A stretch of DNA of 48,512 nucleotides from Candidatus Methylomirabilota bacterium (lineage in GTDB: Bacteria > Methylomirabilota > Methylomirabilia > Rokubacteriales > CSP1-6), in the NCBI GenBank assembly GCA_035936835.1, contig DASYVT010000183.1, forward strand, positions 1-48,512, given 5' to 3'. Below are positions 10,985 to 31,979 of this stretch, piece after piece. The translations under genes and the position numbers were made by a program. How positions within the stretch are numbered: position 1 is the stretch's first letter; each line of letters begins with the position of its first letter. The notes beneath the pieces are model-generated. The model was not told the origin of the DNA and searched no databases. It saw nothing but the letters and a program-made list of their open reading frames with translations.

Positions 10985-12049
10985 ATGACGGACCCCAAGA
11001 CCGGCAAGCAGATCCGGCTGACGAGCTACGCCGCCTGCGCGGGCTGAGCCTCCAAGATGGGTCCTGGAGATCTCCAGGACGTGTTGAGCGGCCTCGAGCA
11101 CCACGAGCACGCTGATCTCCTGGTCGGGCTCGGGCGGAGCGACGACGCGGCCGTCTACCGCATCACCGATGAGGTCGCGATCGTCAGCACGGTGGACTTC
11201 TTTCCTCCCATCGTGGACGACCCCTACCTCTACGGCGCCATCGCCGCGGCCAACTCCATGTCCGACGTCTACGCGATGGGCGGGCAGGTGCTGTTCGCGC
11301 TCAACGTGGCGGGCTTCCCGCGCGAGATGCCGAAGGAAGTGATCGCGGCCGTATTCAAGGGCGGCGCCGACAAGGTGCTCGAGGCCGGCGGTGTCATCGC
11401 GGGCGGCCACACGGTGGTGGACGCCGAGCCCAAGTACGGCCTCGCCGTCACCGGCAAGGTCCATCCCAAGCGCATCTTCATCAAGGGCGGACTCAGGCCC
11501 GGGCATCGGCTCTTCCTCTCCAAGCCGCTCGGCACGGGCGTGATCGCGACGGCAGCCAAGGACGACGCCTGTGAGCCGGCCGTCCTCGAGGGGGCGGTGC
11601 AGAGCATGCTGCGGCTGAACCGGGTCGCCGCGGAGGTGGCGGGGGAGGCGGTGGTGCGAGGGGCGACGGACATCACGGGCTTCGGTCTGCTCGGCCACGC
11701 GGCCGAGATGGTCGAGGCCTCGGGGGCGGGCATCGCGCTGCGCGCAGCAGACATCCCGCTCCTCCCGGGAGCGCTGGCGCTCGCCGAGAAGGGGACGTTC
11801 AGCGGAGGCATGAAGCGGAACCGGACGCACCTCGAGCACACCCTCGGCTCGCGCGGCCGGCTGTCACTCGGCCCGTCCGTAGGAGTCGCGCACGCGGGCC
11901 TGCTCTTCGAGTCGGAGACTTCGGGTGGCCTCCTCTTCGGCGTGGCGCCCGAGGACGCGGGCATGGTCCGCGACGGCTTCAAGCGGCGAGGGGAGGCCTG
12001 CTGGGAGATCGGCGAGGTGACGGCTGAGATCGGTATAGCGGTTCGCTGA
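10985..12049 (+). CDS. selD: Selenide, water dikinase (SelD), itself a selenoprotein with in-frame UGA
   Basis: SelD makes selenophosphate from selenide and ATP, the selenium donor for selenocysteine and selenouridine. Reading from the ATG at 10985 through an in-frame TGA at 11045-11047 as selenocysteine gives IRLTSYAACAGUASKMGPGDL. This aligns with E. coli SelD (IRLTQYSHGAGCGCKISP), placing U21 at catalytic Cys17 and Lys24 at Lys20. Stopping at the UGA or starting at 11057 would remove both. The rest is typical: DDAAVYRITDEVAIVSTVDFF, GAIAAANSMSDVYAMGG, VIAGGHTVVDAEPKYG and DITGFGLLGHAAEM. Length is 354 codons including Sec. A perfect palindrome lies 13 bases after the UGA. It follows lysR by 90 bases. 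Confidence 0.92.
11061..11080 (+). other. SECIS-like hairpin for selD selenocysteine insertion
   Basis: The 20 bases 11061-11080 are a perfect inverted repeat (GTCCTGGAGA with its complement). They start 13 bases after the UGA codon and place the apical loop about 20-26 bases downstream. Bacterial SECIS elements sit within the coding region at about this distance and bind SelB. The loop sequence is not identical to the E. coli fdhF element. Confidence 0.6.
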
Positions 12050-20000: not shown

Positions 20001-21424
20001 CGAGCCTGGCCGTCGTGCTCTCGATCGACCGCTCGGGCTCCATGGCCATGACGACGGACGACAAGGCGACCAAGCTCGACATCGCGAAGGAGGCCTCGCA
20101 CCTTGTCGTGGACCTGCTCGACGACCGTAACGAGGTCGGCGTCATGAGCTGGGACACCGAGTTCGTCTGGGACTCGCCGATCCGCCCGGCCCGCGACAAG
20201 CAGGCCATTCACCATGCCATCGCCACGATCAAGGCGGGGGGCGGCACCGACGGCTACCCGGGGCTCAAGGAGGCCTACCAGGTCCTGTACGACCGCCCGG
20301 CCCTGCTCAAACACGTCATCTTCCTCTCCGACGGGCAGATGACGCGCGGCGACTTCGCCGGCCTTGTGCGGCGCATGACCAAGGACAAGATCACCGTGTC
20401 CACGGTCGCCATCGGCAAGGACGCCGACGTCCAGTTGATGGTGGACATCGCCAAGTGGGGGCGCGGGCGCTTCTACTACACGGACGAGGGCGCGACGGTG
20501 CCGCGCATCTTCACCCTCGAGACCCAGCTCGCTTCCAAGGCCTCGCTGGTCGAGCAGCCCTTCAAGGCGTCCGTCGCTTCGCCGGGGCACGAGGCCATAC
20601 AGGAGATCGACTGGAAAGAAGCGCCGCCTCTCGGCGGCTACGTCGCCACCACGCTCAAGGGCAATGCCGAGATGGTCCTCATGACCCACCAGGAGGACCC
20701 GCTGCTGGCCACGTGGCGCTACGGCCTGGGACGCTCCGTGGCCTTCACCTCGGACGCCAAGGGCAAGTGGGCCGTGCTCTGGCTGCGTTGGGGGGGCTTC
20801 AACAAGTTCTGGTCTCAGGTAACGCGGTGGACGCTCCGGACCGGCTCGCGCAGCGACACGGTGGCGACGGTCTCGCGCGTGGACGACACGGGCGAGGTGG
20901 TGGTGGACGCCATCGATAGCAAGGGCGAGTTCATCAATTTCCTCGACTCCCAGGTCGGCGTCGTGTCGCCCGACAAGCAGCGCACCGTGGTGGAGCTCGA
21001 GCAGATCGGCCCCGGCCGGTACCGCGGGCGTTTCCTGGCGTCCCAGGAGGGCGTCTACCTCGTCGGCATGGCGCAGCGCAAGGGCGACCAGATAGTCGGC
21101 TCGCAGCTGGCGGGGCTGGTGGTACCCTACGCCCAGGAGTTCCGGGACTTGGGCGTGGACGAGACATTCCTCAGGGAGATCTCGGAGCTGACGGGCGGTG
21201 GCCCGGTCGGCCAGCCGCGCGACGTCTTCCTGCAGAGCCGCCGGAAGTCCCGTCTCACGCTGGACCTGTGGCCGTGGCTACTTGGCGCCGCCGCGATCCT
21301 GCTGGTGCCCGACATTGCGCTCAGGCGTATCGGCCCTGGCGCCTTCGGGCGGGTGGTGACCCGTCTCAAGACCATACGGCTGGGACAAGGAGGGCGAGGC
21401 CGTGACACGAGCCGAACGACCTAG
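17024..21424 (+). CDS. Giant fused BatA-like plus VWA/glutamine-amidotransferase-like membrane protein with three VWA domains
   Basis: At 1466 residues this is about twice the usual length. The first half is BatA-like: helices near residues 3-24 and 60-80, then a VWA domain with DTSAS at about residue 94. A membrane segment near residues 585-605 and another near 625-645 start the second half. That half has a VWA domain with DVSDS at about 660 and a second with DRSGS at about 1002. A class I glutamine-amidotransferase-like segment (YDGIILSNVSSL, GGGLIMLGGEESFGLGGYY) lies between. A final helix lies near 1410-1430. The protein should sit in the inner membrane as the VWA client or partner of MoxR. 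It overlaps the next gene by 23 bases. Confidence 0.85.
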   Translation: MSFLSPLALLVGALSVPLLLLYFLKVRRHQAMVSSLLLWNPALRDREASTFFQRLQRDPLLILQLLALLALALALARPAVTVMGHGAKRIVVVLDTSASMKATDVSPSRFVRAQREAVAMVNGLGAGAEVMVIEAGVQPRVLAPFGHDREQTLAAIRNAHARDLPNRLGEAVRTARALVGQDARAEIHVFTDGAHPAALRGQADDVRVRWVGVGQRGRNVAITSLAVRRNYIGAFDSQAFVSFANFSDQAESFGFSLTIDGDVVAEKTLTLDPQVRRAVVLPFSHAGGGVLRARLTLSDDLSADDAAYAVIAPARTIRVLLVSPGNLFLEKELSTDPQVKLEVRKPDAYQGGMEGFDVVVLDSVSPPRIGSGRFVLVNTSPPDVPLEVLGRLESPVIMDWDRSHPIMRQVDFAKVAIEDALRVRPLAAGKTLVEAVGGPIVYLLEEPNRKAVFFGFDLFRSDLPLRVAFPVMMSRALRWLHPADLDQASLSLQTGQPILLPVEHGVTTATVRTPSGRSVRAQVTRGVISFTETDEVGVYTVATSRGETKIAVNLFNPDESELHPKPLPSFVEGARPDTAPVPILRELWQFVAALAVLLLALEGFLYWRRQTAGRLGVPHNVGDRWALGLRCVLVAFVLLALVRPTVPRWVDRLNVVFLLDVSDSVSLAARESAFRFAAQSAGGARPGDQAGVIVFGEEAVVAQPLRPGGKIDRPEVQVGGRGTNLAQALQLALATTPPGHANRFVLLSDGRQNVGNALAVAQAAKDAGADIWYVPAPLTFKQEVVVESMLLPREVKFGEPFQAKVVAWSQAETQGRLSMFRNGEFLGSQVIKLNAGKNVFAYRQSLEQSGIHVYQAALDVEGDIIEENNRAVGTVVVRGRPQVLLVEKDKSQAQALTAALRAQHIDVELVEAERIPKDAAGLQKYDGIILSNVSSLKMTKKQMEGIRDYVREQGGGLIMLGGEESFGLGGYYRTPIEEALPVTMEVKQKVEIPSLAVVLSIDRSGSMAMTTDDKATKLDIAKEASHLVVDLLDDRNEVGVMSWDTEFVWDSPIRPARDKQAIHHAIATIKAGGGTDGYPGLKEAYQVLYDRPALLKHVIFLSDGQMTRGDFAGLVRRMTKDKITVSTVAIGKDADVQLMVDIAKWGRGRFYYTDEGATVPRIFTLETQLASKASLVEQPFKASVASPGHEAIQEIDWKEAPPLGGYVATTLKGNAEMVLMTHQEDPLLATWRYGLGRSVAFTSDAKGKWAVLWLRWGGFNKFWSQVTRWTLRTGSRSDTVATVSRVDDTGEVVVDAIDSKGEFINFLDSQVGVVSPDKQRTVVELEQIGPGRYRGRFLASQEGVYLVGMAQRKGDQIVGSQLAGLVVPYAQEFRDLGVDETFLREISELTGGGPVGQPRDVFLQSRRKSRLTLDLWPWLLGAAAILLVPDIALRRIGPGAFGRVVTRLKTIRLGQGGRGRDTSRTT

Positions 21425-22781
21425 CGCGATCATCCGTATCGCCTGCATCGTGCTGCTCACGGCCGCGCTCCCGTCCGCCGCGTTGGCCCAGACTGCCGGG
21501 CCTGGCACGGCGACGAAGGTCAGGAGCGTGCTCATCCTGCCCTACGCCACGACGGACCTTGCCCGCGACGAGCAGTGGCTGGGTGAGGCCGCGGCGCAGG
21601 CGGTCATGAACGCCTTCCGCCAGGTGCCGGGGATCATTCAGGTGGACCGTGCGCGGCTGAAGACCTTGCCCCAGCCCGAGTCGTGGAACGAGCCCTCCGC
21701 GGTGGCGGCGGCCCGCACCGTGCGCGCCGATGTCGCGATCCTCGGGGAAGTGCGCCGCTCGGGCGGCGACCTCGTCTTCCTGGGCCGCTGGGTCGAGTTC
21801 CACGGCGAGCGCGTGGACCGTGGCCAGCTGGACGCCATCCCCGTCCCCGAGGGCGGACTGCCCGAGCGGCTGCGGAGCCTGCCGACCGCCTATGCGAAGG
21901 CGATCAAGATCTCCGCGACGGAGCCCGAGGCGGCGCGCATGCAGAAGTGGGCGGTAGGGACGGTCTCGCCCAAGGCCTGGGAGGCCTACGTACGCGGGCG
22001 CATCGCCGCCGAGCGAGGCACCGCGGACGGCAACGAGGCCGCCGTCGACTCCCTGAGCCGCGCCATCGAAGCGGACGCCCAGTTCGTCCTCGCCCAGTAC
22101 GCGCGCGCCACGGTGCACCAGACGCTCGGCAACCGCTGGAAGGCGTCGGCGGACTTCCGCGCGTCCGCCCAAATGGACCCGACCTTCCCCGAGTCCTACA
22201 AGGGGCTGGGCGATCTCTACCTCACGGCGCCGCGGCGGCTCTTCGACGAAGCTGTCGGGGCCTACGAGAAGGCCATCGACCTGCGCCCGTTCTACGCCGA
22301 GGCCTATGTCGGGCTCGGCGACGCCAAGGCGGCCAAGGGCGACGTGGACGGCGCCATCGGCGCCTATCAGAAGGCGCTGGTTCACAACCCGCTCTCCGGC
22401 AAGGTCTTCGCGAGCCTCGGCAAGATCTACTATTCGGAGAAAGAGCTCTACTACGAGTCGGTGCAGGCCTACAAGAAGGCCGTGGACCTTGACCCCATCA
22501 ACACCGAGGCGCGGATGGGGCTGGCCGAGGTCTACGAGGACAAGGGCCTCTACCAGGAGGCCATCGGCGAGTACCGGAAGGTCGTAGAGCTCGACGCCAA
22601 AAACAGCGGGGCGCTCTACAACCTGGCGCTGGTCTACGAGCGCGTGGATGCGAAGGAGTCGATCGCCCTGTGGGAGCGTTACATCGAGCTGGCGGGTCCG
22701 CAGCCCACGGAGAAGGACTGGGTGGACGTCGCCAAGCTCCACCTGCGCAAGCTCAAGAGTCAGTTCGACAAGGGAAAGTAG
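21402..22781 (+). CDS. Exported tetratricopeptide-repeat protein
   Basis: This 459-residue protein has a Sec signal peptide (hydrophobic IACIVLLTAALPSAALAQ, cleavage near residue 30). An N-terminal domain resembling TolB/FlgO-type ATP-independent folds follows (VRSVLILPYATTDLARDEQWLGEAAAQAVMNAF). About six TPR units fill residues 190-430, for example AYVGLGDAKAAKGDVDGAIGAYQKAL and GLAEVYEDKGLYQEAIGEYRKVVEL. The GTG start at 21402 lies inside the end of the VWA gene. It is the last gene of the MoxR operon, like the TPR protein BatB/BatC partners, and probably scaffolds the complex in the periplasm. Confidence 0.82.
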   Translation: MTRAERPSAIIRIACIVLLTAALPSAALAQTAGPGTATKVRSVLILPYATTDLARDEQWLGEAAAQAVMNAFRQVPGIIQVDRARLKTLPQPESWNEPSAVAAARTVRADVAILGEVRRSGGDLVFLGRWVEFHGERVDRGQLDAIPVPEGGLPERLRSLPTAYAKAIKISATEPEAARMQKWAVGTVSPKAWEAYVRGRIAAERGTADGNEAAVDSLSRAIEADAQFVLAQYARATVHQTLGNRWKASADFRASAQMDPTFPESYKGLGDLYLTAPRRLFDEAVGAYEKAIDLRPFYAEAYVGLGDAKAAKGDVDGAIGAYQKALVHNPLSGKVFASLGKIYYSEKELYYESVQAYKKAVDLDPINTEARMGLAEVYEDKGLYQEAIGEYRKVVELDAKNSGALYNLALVYERVDAKESIALWERYIELAGPQPTEKDWVDVAKLHLRKLKSQFDKGK

Positions 22782-22836: not shown

Positions 22837-23076
22837 TCAAATTCCGAGGAGGGCTTTGAGCGCGGGCTTGTCGAAGCCGCGGACGACCTGATCGTCCACC
22901 AGGATCACCGGCACCGTCATCTGACCCGTCAGTCTCACCAAGTCCTCACGCGCCTGCGGGTCCGCCATCACGTTAATTTCCTCGAAGGGCACGTTCTGAG
23001 ACGAAAGAAACTCTTTCGCCGCCTTGCAAGGGCCTCAGGTGGGGCTCGAGTAGACGACGACATGGTGCTCGCTCAT
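22837..23076 (-). CDS. Selenocysteine-containing glutaredoxin-like protein (UxxC active site)
   Basis: On the minus strand an ATG at 23076 with GGAGGGGG just upstream opens a frame: HHVVVYSSPT, then TGA at 23037-23035, then GPCKAAKEFL. Read as selenocysteine, the protein is 79 residues with U14-G-P-C17, exactly where glutaredoxins and NrdH have CxxC. The rest is canonical: beta strand VPFEEINV, the cis-Pro TVPVILVDDQVVRGF, and a C-terminal helix ending LLGI. A hairpin follows the UGA at the right distance. It would act as a thiol-disulfide reductase in the cytoplasm. A disrupted CxxC gene is the alternative, but frame conservation on both sides argues against decay. Confidence 0.87.
23002..23018 (-). 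other. SECIS-like hairpin for the glutaredoxin UGA
   Basis: In minus-strand sense, CGAAAG (23018-23013), a loop AGTTT and CTTTCG (23007-23002) form a perfect 6-bp stem. The stem begins 17 bases after the UGA and the loop is 23-27 bases downstream, the usual window for bacterial SECIS elements. Confidence 0.6.
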
Positions 23077-23128
23077 GGTTCCCCCTCCTTGCCTTGAGGC
23101 TAACACGTCGCGCAAGAACCCGGGAACC

Positions 23129-23167: not shown

Positions 23168-24154
23168 ATGAGTGATCTCCGGAAAGACCCCACCCGGGGC
23201 CATTGGGTGCTGGTGCGGCCCGCGGGCGAGGCGCCCCCTGCCAGTGGCGACTGCCCATTCTGTCCCGGCAGCGAGTCCCGCACGCCGCCGGAGATTATCG
23301 CCTACCGCAAGGACGGCTCCGCGCCGGACGGGCCCGGGTGGAGCGTGCGCGTCGTACCTGAGATCGATCCCTACTTCCGCGTTGAGCGCGACGTTGGGCG
23401 CGAAGGCGTGGGTCTCTACGACAAGGTCCCTCCGCGCGGGGCAACCGAGCTCATCATCGAGAGCCCAGAGCACGATCTCACGCCGGCGGGAATGGACGAG
23501 GCGCGGTGGGAACAGGTCCTGTGGATGTACCGCGACCGGCTGCGCGACCTTAAGAAGGACCCGGCCATCCGCGACATTCTGATCACGCGGCTCTACAAGA
23601 AGCCCGGCTCCCGCATCAGCCACCCGTACTCCCGTGTAGTCGCCGTCCCTGTCATCTTCGACGACGTGCGTCGCCAGCTCATCCAGTGCCGCGAGTACTA
23701 CGAGTACAAGCGACGCTGTGTCTTCTGCGACGTTATCCGCCAGGAGGTGTCCGACGGGGAGCGCGTCATCCGCCTGACGCCCCATTTCGTCGCGCTCGTG
23801 CCCTATGCGGCCCGCTCGCCCTACGAGGCCTGGATCCTGCCGCGACAGCACGCCTGCGCCTTCGAGCAGGCGCTCACACCCGACGCCGTGGCGGATCTGG
23901 CGGCCTTGCTGCGTGGCCACTTCAGGACGCTGGCCTCGCTCCCGGATGATCCCTCCTTCGAGATGGTGCTCTATACCGCCCCCAACCAGGCGGCCAAGCT
24001 CCTGCCGGGCGAGTGGTCCACCATTGCGGAGGACTACCACTGGCATCTCGAGATCACACCCTCGCCGGATCGCCTCAGCCGAATCGGCGGGATCCACGTC
24101 AATGACCTGCCCCCAGAGGAGGCCGCGCGACGGCTGAGAGAGGCCTGGGTCTGA
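23168..24154 (+). CDS. Galactose-1-phosphate uridylyltransferase-like protein with altered HxH site
   Basis: The 328-residue protein has the two-domain HIT-type fold of GalT. It shows DPTRGHWVLVRP at residues 7-18, the metal-type CPFCPG near residue 29, an internal CVFCDVI pair, and C-terminal YHWHLEITP. In genuine GalT the catalytic motif is HPHxQ and the second His carries the uridylyl group. Here residues 152-156 read HPYSR, so the nucleophilic His is Tyr and the Gln is Arg. It may be a phosphorylase or adenylyltransferase-type relative, or an inactive protein. It stands alone, without galK or galE. The start is fixed by the promoter 10 bases upstream. Confidence 0.8.
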   Translation: MSDLRKDPTRGHWVLVRPAGEAPPASGDCPFCPGSESRTPPEIIAYRKDGSAPDGPGWSVRVVPEIDPYFRVERDVGREGVGLYDKVPPRGATELIIESPEHDLTPAGMDEARWEQVLWMYRDRLRDLKKDPAIRDILITRLYKKPGSRISHPYSRVVAVPVIFDDVRRQLIQCREYYEYKRRCVFCDVIRQEVSDGERVIRLTPHFVALVPYAARSPYEAWILPRQHACAFEQALTPDAVADLAALLRGHFRTLASLPDDPSFEMVLYTAPNQAAKLLPGEWSTIAEDYHWHLEITPSPDRLSRIGGIHVNDLPPEEAARRLREAWV

Positions 24155-24293: not shown

Positions 24294-24734
24294 ATGTTGA
24301 GGTTCACAAAGCGGGCTGACTACGGGCTCATGGCGATGCACTACATCGCCGACCACGGAGATGAGGGCGCGGTGAGCGCCAAGCGCATCGCCGAGGAATT
24401 CCACATCCCGGGCGAGCTATTGGCCAAGATCCTTCAGCGCCTCGCCAAGCACCGGCTCATCACGAGCCACAACGGCCCCAAGGGCGGTTACGTGCTGACG
24501 CGCCGGCCCGAGGCCATCACGGTCGGGCAGGTGGTGCGGGCCCTCGAGGGCCCGATCGAGATCGTCAGCTGCATGACCGATGGCGACGACTGCCCGCAGT
24601 ACTCGCGCTGCAACCTCCGCCGGCCGGTCCAGAAAATCCAGGCCAGCATCAGCCGTCTGCTCGACACCATGACGCTGTCCGAGCTTGCTTCAGACGGCTT
24701 CGTGCCCGTGGCCGAGCTGGTCACCACGACGTAG
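24294..24734 (+). CDS. iscR: IscR-like Rrf2-family iron-sulfur regulator
   Basis: The 146-residue protein begins MLRFTKRADYGLMAMHYIA and has the winged HTH of Rrf2 regulators (residues 25-70, with GPKGGYVLTR). It has three cysteines, C93, C100 and C106, in the cluster-binding loop (SCMTDGDDCPQYSRC). E. coli IscR uses C92, C98, C104 and His107. The spacing here is one residue longer between the first two, and no His follows the third. As first gene of the isc operon it probably senses iron-sulfur status and represses the operon. The ATG at 24294 follows GGAGGAG. Confidence 0.88.
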   Translation: MLRFTKRADYGLMAMHYIADHGDEGAVSAKRIAEEFHIPGELLAKILQRLAKHRLITSHNGPKGGYVLTRRPEAITVGQVVRALEGPIEIVSCMTDGDDCPQYSRCNLRRPVQKIQASISRLLDTMTLSELASDGFVPVAELVTTT

Positions 24735-24744
24735 GAGAAAGACG

Positions 24745-25971
24745 ATGCCGCCCAAGCTCCCCATCTTCATGGACAGCCAGTCCACGACCCCGATGGATCC
24801 CCGGGTGCTCGAGGCCATGCTGCCCTACTTCACCGAGAAGTTCGGCCACCCGGCGAGCCGCAACCACCCGTTTGGATGGGAGGCCGAGGCCGGCGTGGAC
24901 AAGGGGCGCGAGCAGATCGCCGCGCTCTTAGGCGCCCGCGACCCGAAAGAGATCATCTTCACCTCGGGCGGGACCGAGTCGATCAACTTGGCCCTCAAGG
25001 GCGTGGCGGAGATGTACCGCGAGAAGGGCAACCACATCCTGACCACGGCCATCGAGCAGCGCGCGAGCCTCGACGTCTGCAAGCGGCTCGAGCGCCAGGG
25101 CTTCGAGGTCACCTACCTGCCCGTGGGGCCTGAGGGGCTGGTGGACCTCGGCGCGCTGCGCGCGGCGCTGACTGACAAGACCATCCTGATCTCGGTCATG
25201 TTCGCCAACAACGAGATCGGGACGATCCAGCCCATTGCCGAGATCGGCAAGCTGGCCAAGGAGCGCGGCATCGTCTTCCACACCGACGCGACCCAGGCGG
25301 CGGGCAAGGTGCCGGTCAACGTCGAGGCCATGGGCATCGACCTGCTGTCGGCGACGGCCCACCTGATGTACGGGCCCAAGGGCGTGGGCTGCCTCTACGT
25401 CCGCCGCAAGAACCCGCGCGTGCGGCTCGCCCCCATGATGGATGGCGGCGGCCACGAGCGCGGCATGCGCTCCGGCACGGTGCCGGTGCCGCTGGTCGTC
25501 GGGTTCGGAAGGGCGGCCGAGATCTGTCGTGAGGTGATGGCGGAGGAGGGCAAGCGCCTCGGCGCCCTGCGCGACCGCCTGCAGGATTTGATCCTCTCCA
25601 AGGTGGACGAGGCCTACGTCAACGGCCCCCCGCAGCACCGGCTGCCGCACAACCTGAACATCTCCTTCGCCTACGTCGAGGGAGAGTCCGTGCTGATGGG
25701 GCTCAACAAGGAGTCGGCGCTGTCCTCGGGCTCCGCCTGCACCTCGTCGACTCTCGAGCCCTCGTACGTGATTGCGGCCCTGGGGGTGGATTCCGAGCTG
25801 GCCCATTCCTCGATCCGGTTCGGGCTGCACCGCTTCTCGACCGAGGAGGAAGTCGATTACGTCGGCCCCCGGATGGTGGAGGTCGTGCACCGGCTGCGGG
25901 AGATGTCGCCGTTGTACGAGCTCGCGAAGGAAGGCGTGGACCTCAAAACGATCCAGTGGAAGGGCGAGTAA
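24745..25971 (+). CDS. Cysteine desulfurase-like protein of the isc operon, lacking the PLP lysine
   Basis: The 408-residue protein has the whole IscS/NifS fold. It keeps the catalytic cysteine in SGSACTSS (C332), TSGGTES near residue 74 and the cofactor aspartate region HTDATQAAGK. Two key residues are changed. The PLP-binding lysine of HKxYGPKG is leucine (L207, HLMYGPKG), and the His that stacks on PLP and acts in catalysis (H104 in E. coli) is Gln105 (IEQRASLD). It sits between iscR and iscU, where IscS belongs. Archaeoglobus fulgidus IscS is a known precedent without the lysine. It may scaffold IscU, use sulfide, or depend on the second desulfurase at 30777. AGGAG precedes the ATG. Confidence 0.88.
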   Translation: MPPKLPIFMDSQSTTPMDPRVLEAMLPYFTEKFGHPASRNHPFGWEAEAGVDKGREQIAALLGARDPKEIIFTSGGTESINLALKGVAEMYREKGNHILTTAIEQRASLDVCKRLERQGFEVTYLPVGPEGLVDLGALRAALTDKTILISVMFANNEIGTIQPIAEIGKLAKERGIVFHTDATQAAGKVPVNVEAMGIDLLSATAHLMYGPKGVGCLYVRRKNPRVRLAPMMDGGGHERGMRSGTVPVPLVVGFGRAAEICREVMAEEGKRLGALRDRLQDLILSKVDEAYVNGPPQHRLPHNLNISFAYVEGESVLMGLNKESALSSGSACTSSTLEPSYVIAALGVDSELAHSSIRFGLHRFSTEEEVDYVGPRMVEVVHRLREMSPLYELAKEGVDLKTIQWKGE

Positions 25972-26004
25972 CGGCGCCTTACGGCGCCCAGGAGGCATAG
26001 ACCT

Positions 26005-26421
26005 ATGGCCTACAGCGACAAGGTGGTGGATCACTACAACAACCCGCGCAACGTCGGGTCCTTCGGCAAGGACACGCCGGGCGTGGGCACGGGGCTCGTG
26101 GGCGCGCCGGAGTGCGGCGACGTCATGAAGCTCCAGATCAAGGTCAATATCGAGACCGGGGTGATCGAGGACGCCAAGTTCAAGACGTTCGGCTGCGGCA
26201 GCGCCATCGCCTCGTCGAGCCTGGCGACCGAATGGCTCAAGGGCCGGACGGTGGACGACGCGGCCAAGATCAAGAACACGGACATCGTCAACGAGCTCAA
26301 GCTGCCCCCGGTGAAGATTCACTGCTCGGTCCTGGCCGAGGACGCCATCAAGGCCGCGCTCCAGGACTACAAGGAAAAGTGGACGGCGGCGGAGACGCAC
26401 GCCCCGGGCAGCGCATCCTAA
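26005..26421 (+). CDS. iscU: Iron-sulfur cluster scaffold protein IscU
   Basis: This 138-residue scaffold assembles [2Fe-2S] and [4Fe-4S] clusters. All ligands are present: C37 and D39 (APECGDVM), C64 (FGCGSA), and H106-C107 (KIHCSVLAED). The HscA-recognition motif LPPVK is at residues 100-104, matching the hscA gene downstream. The start has AGGAGG 9 bases upstream. Because the desulfurase-like gene before it lacks the PLP lysine, the source of sulfur for this IscU is an open point. Confidence 0.95.
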   Translation: MAYSDKVVDHYNNPRNVGSFGKDTPGVGTGLVGAPECGDVMKLQIKVNIETGVIEDAKFKTFGCGSAIASSSLATEWLKGRTVDDAAKIKNTDIVNELKLPPVKIHCSVLAEDAIKAALQDYKEKWTAAETHAPGSAS

Positions 26422-26442
26422 GGACAGGGAGGTCAAGAACCG

Positions 26443-26769
26443 ATGGCACTGGCACTGACGGAGACGGCGAGCACGCACGTCAAGAAGCTCCTGGAGGAGC
26501 AGAACCTCCACGGCGTGTTCCTGCGCCTGGGCGTCAAGGGCGGGGGCTGCTCGGGGCTGTCATATTCGCTCGAGTTCGACTCCGAGCTCGGCCCGCACGA
26601 CAAGAAGTTCGACGTCGACGGCGTCCAGATGGTCTGCGACGCGAAGAGCTACCTCTACCTGAACGGCGTCACGCTCGACTACGTCACTGAGGGGCTGCAG
26701 GGGGGCTTCACGTTCATCAACCCCCAGGCCAAGTCGAGCTGCGGCTGCGGGACGTCTTTTACGGCATAG
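26443..26769 (+). CDS. iscA: A-type iron-sulfur carrier protein IscA
   Basis: The 108-residue HesB/IscA-type protein has the three conserved cysteines: C36 in KGGGCSGLSY and C100/C102 in SSCGCGTSF. A-type carriers take clusters from the scaffold to apo-proteins. It follows iscU by 21 bases with a moderate Shine-Dalgarno (GGAGG) upstream. ErpA cannot be excluded by sequence alone; the operon position favours IscA. A terminator-like hairpin follows before hscB. Confidence 0.93.
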   Translation: MALALTETASTHVKKLLEEQNLHGVFLRLGVKGGGCSGLSYSLEFDSELGPHDKKFDVDGVQMVCDAKSYLYLNGVTLDYVTEGLQGGFTFINPQAKSSCGCGTSFTA

Positions 26770-26841
26770 GGTTGGGCACGGCATAGGACCGGGGCCGTGG
26801 GATAGCCGGGGCGCGGGACGGACGAACAACGATGAGATCCT

Positions 26842-26865
26842 GAACGGGCCCCCGCGGGCCCGTTC
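26842..26865 (+). terminator. Rho-independent-type terminator inside the isc operon
   Basis: GAACGGGCCC and GGGCCCGTTC pair perfectly over 10 bp with a CCGC loop, followed by TCATTTT. Flanking ATGAGA and TCTCAT can extend the stem around a bulge. It lies between iscA and hscB and would lower expression of hscB-hscA-fdx-iscX relative to iscRSUA. Confidence 0.65.
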
Positions 26866-26896
26866 TCATTTTGTGGAGACTTCTGGATTCGAGGAG

Positions 26897-27496
26897 ATGA
26901 TGTCCGACTACTTCGAGGTGTTCGGGCTGCCGCGCAAGCTCCAGGTTGACCTGGAAGCCCTGCAGCGCCGGTTCTATGAGCTGTCGCGCCGGCACCACCC
27001 CGACTTCCACCAAGGGGCGGACGCTGAGGCCCAGGCGCAGGCGCTCAAGGCTTCGGCGCTCGTCAACCGTGCGTACCGCGCGCTCCGCGATCCGGTCGCG
27101 CGCGTCCAGTACCTGATCGCGCTCGAGGAGGGACGCGAGGTGCGGGAGGAGACGACGGCGAAGCCCAAGGCGCCGATGGATCTCCTCGCGGAGATGCTCG
27201 AGGTGCAGGAAGCGCTGGAGGAGACCAAGTCCGGCGGGTTGACGGAGGAGACGACCGGCCGCCTGCGCGCCGAGAGGCAGCGGCTCGAGGACCGTCGCCG
27301 GGCCGAAGAGACCGCGTTAATCGCGGCCGCGACAGAGTGGGACGCGGCCGTGGACGCAGGTCAGGACCGCGCGCCGCTGCTCGAGCGCTTCAAGCAGCGC
27401 CTGGCCGCCCGCGCCTACCTCGGCACCGTGATCGACGATCTCACCCAGGCGCTCGGAGAGGATGAAGGGAGCCATGTCGCGCATCGTCGGCATTGA
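26897..27496 (+). CDS. hscB: Fe-S assembly co-chaperone HscB
   Basis: The 199-residue J-domain co-chaperone delivers IscU to HscA. MSDYFEVFGLPRKLQVD matches the E. coli HscB start, the J-domain HPD motif is near residues 34-36 (RRHHPDFH), and the C-terminal helical domain includes LLAEMLEVQEALEE. Two ATGs are adjacent (26897 and 26900), both very close behind GAGGAG. A GTG at 26873 is possible but would overlap the terminator tail. The last 23 bases overlap hscA. Family length is about 170-200. Confidence 0.9.
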   Translation: MMSDYFEVFGLPRKLQVDLEALQRRFYELSRRHHPDFHQGADAEAQAQALKASALVNRAYRALRDPVARVQYLIALEEGREVREETTAKPKAPMDLLAEMLEVQEALEETKSGGLTEETTGRLRAERQRLEDRRRAEETALIAAATEWDAAVDAGQDRAPLLERFKQRLAARAYLGTVIDDLTQALGEDEGSHVAHRRH

Positions 27497-29303
27497 CCTC
27501 GGGACCACCAACAGCCTCGTCGCCTACGTGGACGGGGCCGGCGTCCCGCGGGTCATCCCGGACGCGGAGGGGCGGAGGCTCCTGCCCTCGATCGTCGCGT
27601 ACACGCCGGCCGGGGTCGTGGTCGGAGAGGCGGCGCGGCGCCAGCTCGCCCGCAATCCCGCCCGCACGGTCTATTCCGTCAAGCGGTTCATGGGACGCGG
27701 TTGGGAGGACGTTCGGGACGAGGCGCGCCACGTGCCCTTCGAAATCGTCCCGAGCGCGGAAGTGGTCCGGATCCGCGCGGGCGACCGCGAGGTGACGCCG
27801 CCCGAGGTCTCGGCCCAGATCCTCCGCGCGCTCAAGCTCCAGGCCGAGGCCCACCTCGGCGAGCCGGTCGAGCAGGCCGTGATCACGGTGCCGGCCTATT
27901 TCAACGACGCCCAGCGCCAGGCGACCAAGGACGCCGGCCGCATCGCCGGGCTCGAGGTGCTGCGCATCGTCAACGAGCCGACGGCCGCCTCGCTCGCCTA
28001 CGGGCTCCAGAAGCTCGCCCAGGGCGTGATCGCCGTTTACGACCTGGGCGGCGGCACCTTCGACATCTCCATCCTTCGCGTCAAGGACGGCGTCTTCGAG
28101 GTCCTCGCCACAAACGGCAACACGCATCTCGGCGGCGACGACTTCGACCGCGTGGTGGTCCAGTGGCTGCTCGAGGACATCCGGGCGGCGCACGGCGAGG
28201 ATCTGTCGAAGGATCCCGAGGCGCTGCAGGAGCTGAGACTCGGCGCCGAGGCCGCCAAGTGCCGGCTCTCGTCCGAGGAGCGGACCGCGTTCACCATCCC
28301 GTTCGATCGCTTCACCTACCGGCGCGAGATCACGCGCGGCGAGCTCGAAGGGCTGATCGGCTCCCTCGTGGACACCACGCTCGGCCCCTGCCGCATGGCG
28401 CTCAAGGACGCGGGCCTCGCGGCCGATGCCATCGATGAGATCGTGCTGGTTGGCGGCTCGAGTCGCGTGCCCCTCGTGCGCCGGCGCGTGCGCGAGCTCT
28501 TCGGCAAGACGCCCCACAGCCAGCTCAACCCGGACGAGGTCGTTGCGCTGGGCGCGGCGGTCCAGGCCCAGATCCTGGCCGGCGGCATCACGGACATGCT
28601 GCTGCTCGACGTGACGCCGCTGTCCCTCGGGATCGAGACGCTCGGCGGCATCGTCAGCGGGCTGATCCCGCGCAACACGACCATCCCCACGGCGGCCAAG
28701 GAATACTTCACCACCTCGGTGGACGGCCAGACGGCTGTGGACATGCACGTGGTGCAGGGGGAGCGGGAGCTGGCCAAGGACAACCGCTCGCTGGCGCGCT
28801 TCGACCTCTCCGGTGTCGATCCGATGCCCGCTGGGATGCCAAAGATCGAGGTGACCTTCCTGATCGACGCCAACGGCATTCTGCAGGTCCATGCGAACGA
28901 ACTCCGGAGCGGCAAGGCGGCGTCCATCGAGGTCAAGCCGGCCTACGGCCTGAGCGAGGCGCAGGTGGCGCAGATGGTGGAGGACTCCTTCACGCACGCC
29001 GAGGCGGACGTCAACGCGCGGCTCCTGATCGAGACCAAGACCGAGGCCGAGACCGTGATGAACCACGTCAGGCGGGCGCTCAAGCAGGGCGGGCACCTGG
29101 TCAATCCCGAGGAGCTGCACACGATCGCCGCCGCCGTCGACGCCCTGCGGGCCGTCGAGTGCGGGACCGACCGCGATGCCATCCGCGAGCGGACGATCGA
29201 TCTCAACAAGGCGACGGAGCCTCTGGCTGAGGCCATGATGGACGCCGCCATCCGGGGAGCGGTCACCTCGAAGCGGGCGGATCAGATCCTGGAGCAGAAG
29301 TGA
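27474..29303 (+). CDS. hscA: Fe-S assembly chaperone HscA (Hsp70 family)
   Basis: This 609-residue Hsp70 is specialised for IscU. The nucleotide-binding domain has [37 protein letters not shown] and [10 protein letters not shown]. The substrate domain starts near [15 protein letters not shown]. It starts at ATG 27474 (AAGGGA upstream) within the end of hscB, and its stop overlaps the ferredoxin ATG (TGATG). Family length and context make HscA a safe call over DnaK. Confidence 0.95.
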
Positions 29304-29626
29304 TGGCGACCCACAAGGTCACGTTCCTACCGCTCAACGTCACGGTCGAGGCGGACCCCGCCAAGTACCCGCTCGCCGACCACGGCAGGCCGGGCTCGCT
29401 GCTGGACATCGCGCTGGCCAACGGCGTCCGCCTCGAGCACAACTGCGGCGGCAGCTGCGCCTGCACCACGTGCCACGTCATCGTGCGCGAGGGGGAGCAG
29501 AACCTCTCGCCCCTGGAGCAGGACGAGGAGGACCGCCTCGACACCGCTGAAGGGCTCACGCTCCACTCGCGGCTCGGCTGTCAGGCGATCGTGCGCGGCG
29601 ATGTCGTCGTCGAGATACCGAAGTAA
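29303..29626 (+). CDS. fdx: ISC-type [2Fe-2S] ferredoxin
   Basis: The 107-residue adrenodoxin-type ferredoxin supplies electrons for cluster assembly. Ligands are C48, C54 and C57 in EHNCGGSCACTTCHVIV and C93 in LGCQAIV, the spacing of the ISC ferredoxin; C52 is extra, as in E. coli. The N-terminus has an insertion (ADPAKYPLADHGRPGSLLD) relative to E. coli Fdx. It overlaps the hscA stop by one base and its own stop overlaps iscX (TAATG). Confidence 0.93.
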   Translation: MATHKVTFLPLNVTVEADPAKYPLADHGRPGSLLDIALANGVRLEHNCGGSCACTTCHVIVREGEQNLSPLEQDEEDRLDTAEGLTLHSRLGCQAIVRGDVVVEIPK

Positions 29627-29838
29627 TGGACGTCGGGATGACCTGGAAGGACGCCGAGGACATCGCGCTGGCCCTCGTGGAAGCGCATCCGGACACGGAC
29701 CCGTTGACGGTGCGCTTCACGGATCTCCACACGTGGGTGGTCGCGCTGCCGGGCTTCAGCGACGATCCGAAGGGCTCCAATGAAGGGATTCTGGAGAAGA
29801 TCCAGATGAAGTGGCACGAAGAATTCCAGGACAGGTAG
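29626..29838 (+). CDS. iscX: Fe-S assembly protein IscX
   Basis: The 70-residue acidic protein matches IscX: MTWKDAEDIALALVEAHPDTDPLTVRFTDLHTWV, then FSDDPKGSNEGILEKIQMKWHEE. IscX binds the desulfurase IscS, adapts iron supply and modulates its activity. It is the last gene of the isc operon. An internal ATG at 29638 would give a start closer to the E. coli protein. The stop codon abuts that of the convergent sulfur-relay gene with no gap. Confidence 0.92.
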   Translation: MDVGMTWKDAEDIALALVEAHPDTDPLTVRFTDLHTWVVALPGFSDDPKGSNEGILEKIQMKWHEEFQDR

Positions 29839-30063
29839 CTACCAGGTCACGACGTGATCGCTTTCGAAGATCAGATCGAGCAGGGCATCGTAGTCGAGGT
29901 CGGGGCCGAGGCGCTTGACCGCGGCGCCGGCGGGCACGGGTGCGCGCGCTCCGTCGAGCAGCACGACGGTCACGCGGGCGCCCGGCTCTCGCAGGTTCCG
30001 CTCGATCACGGCGTTGGTGAGGGGCGGCGAGTCGGCCTTGACGAGATGGAGGAAGCTGGCCAT
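29839..30063 (-). CDS. TusB/DsrH-like sulfur-relay protein
   Basis: This 74-residue protein has the small alpha/beta fold pattern of the DsrH/TusB family and ends in tryptophan (ESDHVVTW), a family feature. TusB is a subunit of the TusBCD complex that passes sulfane sulfur for tRNA thiolation; DsrH does the same in sulfur oxidation. It is the third of three minus-strand genes of the DsrE superfamily and overlaps the one before by a base (TGATG). No cysteine is visible in it, which fits an accessory subunit. Confidence 0.6.
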   Translation of the reverse strand: MASFLHLVKADSPPLTNAVIERNLREPGARVTVVLLDGARAPVPAGAAVKRLGPDLDYDALLDLIFESDHVVTW

Positions 30064-30419
30064 CAGAACACGAGGAAGCGCCTGGCCTTGGCGACGAGCG
30101 CGGCGATACCGTCCCGCGTGATGGGCGCCACCGGATGCCCGTCGGCGTTCCAGGACCGGTCCGCCGGCGGGGCGCCCTCCTCGACGTGGAAGGGGACGGC
30201 GAGCTTCTTGAGCGCGGCGCGGAACTTGGCGATGTCGTCGCCGTCCACGAGGTTGTCCGTGTCCTCGTCGAGGAGGTGGACGGCCGGTCCGGCCAGGACG
30301 ATGTCGACGGGCGTTTCGCCGGCGACGATGCCCAGCGCGATGCGCATGGCCTCGTTCGCGCGGTGGGAGGCGCGGGGATCTTCGGAGATCAGGACGAGGA
30401 CCGGCTGCCGCTCGGCCAC
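30063..30419 (-). CDS. DsrE/DsrF-like family protein
   Basis: The 118-residue protein begins VAERQPVLVLISEDPRASHRANEAMRIALGI (GTG start) and continues with a Rossmann-like DsrE-superfamily pattern (VDIVLAGPAVHLLDEDTDNL). It lacks a cysteine at the usual active position, so it is more likely a structural subunit of a DsrEFH/TusBCD-type complex. It lies one base after the preceding gene. Family assignment rests on fold pattern and on its two neighbours. Confidence 0.6.
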   Translation of the reverse strand: MAERQPVLVLISEDPRASHRANEAMRIALGIVAGETPVDIVLAGPAVHLLDEDTDNLVDGDDIAKFRAALKKLAVPFHVEEGAPPADRSWNADGHPVAPITRDGIAALVAKARRFLVF

Positions 30420-30420
30420 G

Positions 30421-30738
30421 CTAGTTGAGCGCGAGGAATCGGTCGGTGGCGTTGACGATGTCCGCCAGCACGACGAGGCCGCAGTTGGTCGCCTTGTCCG
30501 ACAGGGGCTGGCGCCGCTTCTGACAGCCGTACGCGCAGACGAAGAGCTTGGCGCCTCGATCGGCCAAGGCCTGCACCCGCGGGTCTTCGACGCCGGCGAC
30601 GCCGTCGTCGATCAGGTAGAGGTACACCTCGGCGCCGCGGTCGAGCGCCGCGCGGCCGAGCCCGACGGCCGTGTCGAGATTTGGATGCTCGGGCGCCGTC
30701 GACACCATGAGACCGAGCTTGCGCTTCGTCAGCTCCAT
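30421..30738 (-). CDS. DsrE family sulfurtransferase-like protein
   Basis: The 105-residue protein reads KLGLMVSTAPEHPNLDTAVGLGRAALDRGAEVYLYLIDDGV and then LADRGAKLFVCAYGCQKRR, a DsrE-type pattern with cysteines after the fourth strand and one later (NCGLVV). DsrE/TusD carries persulfide on such a cysteine. It is the first of three adjoining genes in a TusD-C-B-like order. The family-like ATG is at 30738; an extension to 30777 would swallow the promoter. Divergent nifS starts 38 bases away, which suggests a joint role in sulfur transfer. Confidence 0.7.
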   Translation of the reverse strand: MELTKRKLGLMVSTAPEHPNLDTAVGLGRAALDRGAEVYLYLIDDGVAGVEDPRVQALADRGAKLFVCAYGCQKRRQPLSDKATNCGLVVLADIVNATDRFLALN

Positions 30739-30748
30739 GACGGGGCCG

Positions 30749-30777
30749 AGCGTAGCACCCAGAGAGAGGAGCGTCAA
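30749..30777 (-). promoter_or_regulatory. Promoter of the DsrE-like genes
   Basis: On the minus strand, TTGACG (30777-30772), a 17-base spacer and TACGCT (30754-30749) stand 10 bases before the ATG at 30738, with no Shine-Dalgarno. The -35 box overlaps the first base of the divergent nifS start codon. Confidence 0.6.
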
Positions 30778-31979
30778 TGAACCGCCGAGTCTATCTCGAT
30801 CATAACGCGTCGACGCCGGTGCACCCCGAGGTGCTTCAGGCCATGCTGCCGTACTTCAGCGAGCGTTTTGGCAATCCCTCGAGCGTCCACGGCTTCGGGC
30901 GCGAGGCGCGCGACGGCATGGAGACGGCCCGCGAGCAGATCGCGGACTTCCTCAAGGTGTCCAAGGACGAGATCGTCTTCACCTCGGGCGGCACGGAGTC
31001 CGACAACCTCGGCATCAAGGGGCTGGCCGCCGCGCGGGGCTCGGGTCACATCATCACGTCGCAGATCGAGCACCATGCCGTGCTTCGAACCGTCCAGACC
31101 CTGGAAGAGCAGGGCTTCACCGCGACGTACCTGCCGGTCGACGGCGACGGCATGGTCAACCCCGACGACGTTAAGAAGGCCCTGCGGGCCGACACGATCC
31201 TCGTCTCGCTGATGGGCGCGAACTCCGAGGTCGGCACGCTCCAGCCGATCCGCGAGGTCGGCCGCATCACGCGCGAGGCGGGCGTGCCGCTCCACGTGGA
31301 CGGCGTCCAGACGTTCGGCAAGGTGCCGATCGACGTGGGCGCCTTCGGCATAGACCTGCTCTCCTTCTCCGGGCACAAGATCTACGGTCCGAAGGGAGTA
31401 GCCGGCCTCTTCATCCGTAAAGGCACCAAGATGGCCTCGATCCAGCATGGCGGCGAGCACGAGCGGCGCCGGCGGGCCGGCACGGAGAACGTGGCGGGCA
31501 TCGTGGGCCTGGGCAAGGCCGTGGAGATCCGCAACCGCGACATGGCGCTCGAGGGCGCCCGTCTGACCGCGCTGCGCGACCGGCTCTGGGATGGCCTGCG
31601 GGCCGGCGTGGCGGAGGTGCGTCTCAACGGGCACCCGACGGAGCGGCTTCCTGGCACGTGCAACATGTGCTTCCGCAATATCGAGTCCGAATCCGTAGTC
31701 TTGGGTCTCGACCTCAAGGGCATCGGAGTCTCGGCCGGCTCCGCGTGCACTTCGGGCAACGTCGAGCCGTCCTACGTTCTCGTGGCCATGGGGCTGCCGC
31801 TCGATTGGGCCATGGGCTCCGTGCGCTGCTCGCTCGGGCGCGGCACGACGGCGGAGGACATCGAGTACGTCATCGAGAGCGTGGTGCCGCTGGTGGGCAA
31901 GCTCAAAGCCCAGTCGCCGGTAGCGAGCTCGGCCCCCGTAGCGGGCTTGGCCCCAGTAGTGGGCTCGTCGAAGGTCTAG
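30777..31979 (+). CDS. nifS: Cysteine desulfurase (NifS/IscS type), complete active site
   Basis: The 400-residue PLP enzyme releases sulfur from cysteine. All key residues are present: H99 (IEHHAVLR), the PLP lysine K201 (SFSGHKIYGPKG) and the persulfide cysteine C324 (SAGSACTSGNVEPS). This contrasts with the isc-operon homologue at 24745. The C-terminus ends in a repetitive tail built from 18-bp units (SAPVAG, LAPVVG). AGAGAGGAG precedes the ATG. The stop overlaps the GTG of the IscU-like gene, and cysE follows, so cysteine synthesis, desulfuration and a scaffold form one unit. Confidence 0.92.
   Translation: MNRRVYLDHNASTPVHPEVLQAMLPYFSERFGNPSSVHGFGREARDGMETAREQIADFLKVSKDEIVFTSGGTESDNLGIKGLAAARGSGHIITSQIEHHAVLRTVQTLEEQGFTATYLPVDGDGMVNPDDVKKALRADTILVSLMGANSEVGTLQPIREVGRITREAGVPLHVDGVQTFGKVPIDVGAFGIDLLSFSGHKIYGPKGVAGLFIRKGTKMASIQHGGEHERRRRAGTENVAGIVGLGKAVEIRNRDMALEGARLTALRDRLWDGLRAGVAEVRLNGHPTERLPGTCNMCFRNIESESVVLGLDLKGIGVSAGSACTSGNVEPSYVLVAMGLPLDWAMGSVRCSLGRGTTAEDIEYVIESVVPLVGKLKAQSPVASSAPVAGLAPVVGSSKV

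Follow-up and report, generated by a model that had tools for sequence, protein, structure and literature searches.

The window analysed here, a 48,512-nt stretch of DNA from an uncultured Candidatus Methylomirabilota bacterium, carries a gene (grxU) that almost certainly encodes a selenocysteine (Sec)-containing glutaredoxin of the UxxC type, with UGA codon 14 read as the predicted Sec; this assignment is drawn from sequence and its comparison across relatives. PMC9312934 counts UxxC Sec-glutaredoxins among the experimentally verified families, and they have been seen in Sargasso Sea data (PMC1088965) and in Geobacter, Alkaliphilus and Moorella (PMC1794560). Thus, grxU does not found a new family and is a new, phylum-wide addition to a known one. 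With it, Sec-glutaredoxins go from scattered reports to near-universal, multi-copy genes in a candidate phylum recently noted for a very large predicted selenoproteome; PMC13188914 cites one Methylomirabilota MAG with 63 predicted selenoprotein genes.

A glutaredoxin frame with one internal UGA

The grxU frame runs on the minus strand from ATG 23076 to TGA 22837 (22837..23076; 79 aa), with a Shine-Dalgarno sequence, AGGAGG, 7 nt 5′ of the ATG (23084..23089, minus strand). Its sole internal stop is TGA 23037-23035, codon 14, exactly where the initial annotation had placed it, at the first Cys of a glutaredoxin CxxC motif; the terminal stop is also TGA. The predicted Sec (23035..23037, minus strand) holds the first position of a U14-G-P-C17 redox motif (SSPT-U-GPC) in the read-through product (MSEHHVVVYSSPTUGPCKAAKEFLSSQNVPFEEINVMADPQAREDLVRLTGQMTVPVILVDDQVVRGFDKPALKALLGI). 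Glutaredoxin sequence had been claimed for both sides of the TGA, and the product indeed matches the whole of the Pfam Glutaredoxin profile (PF00462; 2.2e-22, positions 1-60 of 60). An AlphaFold2 model (single-sequence, Cys for Sec; pLDDT 83, pTM 0.69) has the glutaredoxin fold and places residue 14 directly before the first active-site helix (15-26); the domain is recognised by both profile and fold.

Among curated NCBIfam models, scored with Cys in place of Sec, a substitution that may lower the scores by a few bits, grxU passes a single cut-off, that of GlrX_YruB (TIGR02196; 90.4 vs 88.55 bits), which is the YruB family and not Grx3. It scores 58.2 against the NrdH-redoxin model TIGR02194, below the cut-off of 85.75, and NrdH-type structures are among its fold matches; from GlrX_YruB and the NrdH-redoxins it differs in that Sec replaces Cys. 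The Uxx-star/UXX-star families are glutaredoxin-like selenoproteins that match the identical stretch of grxU, with scores short of their cut-offs (63.7/66 for NF041212, 34/72 for NF041114, 49.7/100 for NF041211 and 37.5/97 for NF047338). UXX-star family 1 is UxxT in a literature table, whereas grxU keeps the resolving Cys.

The genome, a draft of 236 contigs and 4.1 Mb that is 99.9% complete, has the Sec machinery. The genes selA, selB and selC, whose absence the initial annotation would have counted against Sec, are all present: SelA (583 bits), SelB (373 bits) and tRNA-Sec (71.3 bits) score above their cut-offs and lie within 5 kb on contig C235. The selenophosphate synthetase gene selD, already noted in the window, lies at 10985..12049 (plus strand; start 10985 guessed) and was recognised by reading the frame, the family search giving generic AIRS domains only. 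It is itself a selenoprotein gene, with an in-frame TGA at 11045-11047 in a UxxK motif (...YAACAG-U-ASK..., CAGUASK) and a strong hairpin (z -2.2) after it. Among related genomes, 81 of 99 have tRNA-Sec. A few relatives carry the UGA gene with no tRNA-Sec detected (e.g. G035 and G041), gaps that may be due to draft assembly.

A genome-wide reassignment of UGA, for example to Trp or Gly, would likewise let an in-frame UGA be read through, in place of Sec recoding at codon 14. We regard this as extremely improbable because the adjoining genes yield normal table-11 proteins, TGA terminates grxU itself, the site is aligned with Cys in homologues, and tRNA-Sec, selA and selB are present.

Conservation of codon 14 and selection on the frame

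Homologues of grxU were found in 90 of 99 relatives, nearly every match having exactly one internal TGA. In all 30 fetched orthologues the TGA takes the first CxxC position, the fourth position is Cys and the frame is unbroken; orthologues down to ~50% identity still retain the TGA, resolving Cys and frame. This conservation, together with the Sec machinery in the genome, supports the UxxC assignment first proposed from the sequence of the window. The paralogue groups SSTUQSC, QPGUGAC, NVGUGPC and QGUSSC have TGA at the equivalent place. In the hits before selection for U..C, homologues within the phylum that lack the TGA are distant ones only (L113, the second match in L101, and L051); the hairpin alignment described below draws on 70 sequences chosen for U..C, and their TGA is hence a matter of selection. 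Cys homologues at the TGA site, a check named in the initial annotation, occur outside the phylum in a Zambryskibacteria MAG, a Woesearchaeota genome and another bacterial MAG (L054, L055 and L056), so that the in-frame UGA of grxU aligns with the catalytic Cys of homologues.

Comparison of grxU with six orthologues gave a higher pS than pN both before and after the TGA; against L020, for instance, pS was 0.62 and pN 0.19 downstream, and 0.39 and 0.18 upstream. The hairpin region was without synonymous change in five of the six comparisons.

These data bear on whether the TGA is a real stop, either of a pseudogene or through a one-base sequencing or assembly error. The genome is a draft, and a nonsense mutation would look like a single in-frame stop. 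Against this, the equivalent TGA is found in 30 orthologues of different genomes, other genera included, as well as in the paralogue groups, purifying selection acts on both sides of it, and the hairpin shows compensatory changes. Degradation of the frame in related genomes, which had been raised as a possible objection, is not seen: the flanks are intact on both sides. A real stop is accordingly given a negligible probability.

A SECIS-type hairpin after codon 14

Judged by sequence comparison, the hairpin that follows codon 14 is a bacterial-type SECIS, and the comparative case is decisive. It has 8 bp, with 23019-23012 paired with 23008-23001 around a GUU loop at 23011-23009 (23001..23019, minus strand), and is separated from the UGA by a gap of 15 nt if counted to the outer G-U pair or 16 nt if counted to the C-G pair. 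A perfect 6-bp hairpin starting 17 bases past the UGA had been described before; the start stands, and the stem (CGAAAG/CUUUCG) extends beyond the 6 bp to 7-8 bp. The position just downstream of the UGA and the small loop containing G are those of a bacterial SECIS as taken from PMC1088965. Searches of Rfam gave no match to the hairpin at the gathering score and chance matches only at a relaxed score.

Folded as a single sequence, the short hairpin (21 nt) has -9.2 kcal/mol and z -3.75. A longer stretch of 54 nt folded alone is not unusual (z -1.0), and the case for the hairpin thus depends on the comparative evidence. In the 70-sequence alignment, 98.4% of cells hold standard pairs, there are 24 two-sided changes, and at least three pair types occur at two positions: C-G 52, A-U 16 and U-A 2 at pair 20/36, and A-U 64, U-A 3, C-G 2 and G-U 1 at pair 23/33. 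None of 500 shuffles reached the pairing or the covariation of the hairpin, and no more than 2 of the 500 reached any one of five measures, counts which, since the sequences share kinship, are descriptive and not exact probabilities. Sliding the partner by 1-3 columns lowers the pairing to 45-73%, and RNAalifold, unaided, recovers the identical hairpin.

Codon usage points to the same element. The stem encodes KEFL with the codons AAA, GAG, TTT and CTT, and in 20 genes of the window AAA accounts for 5.5% of its codon family, TTT for 5.2% and CTT for 4.2%, the genome being GC-rich. Inside the hairpin AAA was used in 28/30 cases, TTT in 29/30 and CTT in 30/31, compared with 9/48, 9/62 and 8/177 elsewhere in these genes (Fisher p = 3e-11, 6e-15 and 1e-27, again descriptive given the kinship of the sequences). 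The near-fixation of rare codons argues for a constraint on the RNA over and above that on the protein. The grxU hairpin also provides comparative proof, of unusual clarity, that a bacterial SECIS is present, in that changes of K to M/V/T are matched by codon changes on the opposite arm.

These pair changes are found in the Rokubacteria group NVGUGPC (L099, L100, L108, L109 and L114), which keeps the hairpin with U-A and C-G besides the usual A-U at one position; they come via the amino acid changes K to M/V/T together with the rare Leu codon CTA. A Terriglobia MAG (L057, 3001-3219) has a UxxC Sec-glutaredoxin with the same hairpin, in which the outer pair is compensated (GUGAAAG...CUUUCAC), a gene perhaps transferred from or to Methylomirabilota.

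Two further ideas about the hairpin were rejected. One SECIS is not common to all selenoprotein genes of the genome: only the three glutaredoxin paralogues match CGAAAGAGTTTCTTTCG within 1 mismatch, and selD has a different hairpin. Nor are there phage-borne copies of the gene: the exact matches in six viral contigs lack a glutaredoxin, and reading the KEFLS frame shows no UxxC ahead of the hairpin.

Reductant, gene neighbourhood and paralogues

In the proposed mechanism, the ribosome arrives at UGA codon 14 and SelB with Sec-tRNA-Sec would bind the hairpin 15-16 nt downstream, so that Sec would be inserted at codon 14 rather than translation being terminated. By homology to Grx1 of Clostridium (Alkaliphilus) oremlandii, U14 would then attack a disulfide or sulfenic acid of the substrate and C17 would resolve the mixed selenenylsulfide. 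Oxidised GrxU would most likely be re-reduced by thioredoxin reductase, like NrdH-redoxins, or by another low-molecular thiol. We infer that grxU encodes a small Sec-based dithiol redoxin of the glutaredoxin fold.

C. oremlandii Grx1 is the best PDB match of grxU (7c10; sequence 5e-17, fold E 3e-6, TM 0.8). PMC7642778 describes it as a selenoprotein in its native form, with U(or C)PXC as its site, and U13C mutants of it have been used (PMC4479559). Both proteins are UxxC Sec-glutaredoxins of equal size and fold, with 48-49% identity in the fold alignment, and share the KEFLS peptide, which in grxU is encoded by the hairpin. They differ in that Grx1 belongs to a Firmicute, is GSH-reduced and is paired with a Sec MsrA, whereas grxU adjoins galT/isc in a genome with no glutathione synthesis detected. 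The UxxC Sec-glutaredoxins of earlier surveys (PMC1088965, PMC1794560, PMC13188914) also carry Sec in place of the first Cys of CxxC, with a SECIS hairpin directly downstream; those surveys found them in a limited set of species, whereas in Methylomirabilota/Rokubacteria they are near-universal and have several paralogues.

The match to the glutaredoxin profile and the description of C. oremlandii Grx1 as GSH-reduced (PMC7642778) could mean that grxU is a strict glutathione-dependent class I glutaredoxin. This is improbable: the three glutathione-synthesis families searched (PF04262 and PF04107 for GshA, PF02955 for GshB) gave matches in control genomes but none in this 99.9%-complete one, and among the curated cut-offs grxU passes that of YruB alone and not that of Grx3. 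Since these three families were not found, calling the protein a glutaredoxin should not be read as implying glutathione; thioredoxin reductase was found in the genome and is, with GshA and GshB undetected, the likely reductant of GrxU, a proposal that we hold with moderate confidence.

The neighbours of the predicted Sec-redoxin gene are conserved. A galT-like gene (23168..24154, plus strand) is divergent from grxU, with 91 bp between the start codons, and a gene for a TPR-repeat protein (21402..22781, plus strand) is convergent with it; the order TPR-grxU-galT is found in nearly all Rokubacteria orthologue loci with enough flank. Beyond galT lies an iscR-iscS-iscU-iscA-hscB-hscA-fdx Fe-S assembly cluster (24294..29626, plus strand), named from reading the ORF sequences rather than by family search. 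In all five of the examined 20-kb Rokubacteria loci with an orthologue, galT is followed by iscR-iscS-iscU-iscA-hscB-hscA-fdx-dsrEFH-iscS2. In the window, the dsrEFH-like set is on the opposite strand (29839-30777, minus strand), between the isc cluster and the second iscS, which together span 24294-31979 on the plus strand, an arrangement kept in relatives.

The fixed position by the isc cluster suggests, as a guess, a role of grxU connected with Fe-S/sulfur handling; grxU is divergent from the isc genes, which makes this a hint only. A stronger version, in which the Sec redoxin serves mainly for Fe-S/sulfur delivery with its client in the adjacent isc/dsrEFH genes and not for general disulfide reduction, is favoured by the strict synteny from TPR to dsrEFH in the five loci but is rather unlikely: grxU is divergent from the galT/isc operon and lies outside it, a dithiol UxxC site is what disulfide reductases typically have, and grxU paralogues are found in other contexts.

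Two such paralogues are in this genome. The QGUSSC paralogue (L121, contig C143, 1746-2489) is a third Sec-glutaredoxin, with a longer C-terminal part not recognised by Pfam, and immediately follows a pyridine-nucleotide disulfide oxidoreductase-like (flavoprotein) gene. The second Sec-glutaredoxin (L122, contig C122, 1026-1262) has a MerB-like gene (PF03243, 4e-13) on one side and a zinc-ribbon gene on the other, with MerR and a weak, below-cut-off match to MerT nearby. Most loci of its group show parts of this mer-like arrangement, as do several belonging to the class's other families, which suggests selenium chemistry in organomercury handling. Rokubacteria and relatives could, we tentatively propose, have a glutathione-independent selenoredoxin system, in which a UxxC redoxin fed by thioredoxin reductase is tied to Fe-S/sulfur assembly and a duplicate is specialised for organomercury in MerR-MerB-GrxU-Zn ribbon-MerT clusters, with one strongly conserved SECIS hairpin in both. 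The isc and mer links point to testable roles for selenium in a glutathione-free handling of sulfur and mercury.

The STTUQSC/QPGUGAC paralogue occurs phylum-wide in mer-like clusters that hold various of MerR, the MerB-like lyase, the zinc ribbon and a MerT-like protein (L122, L077-L091, L097, L098, L102, L104-L106 and L110).
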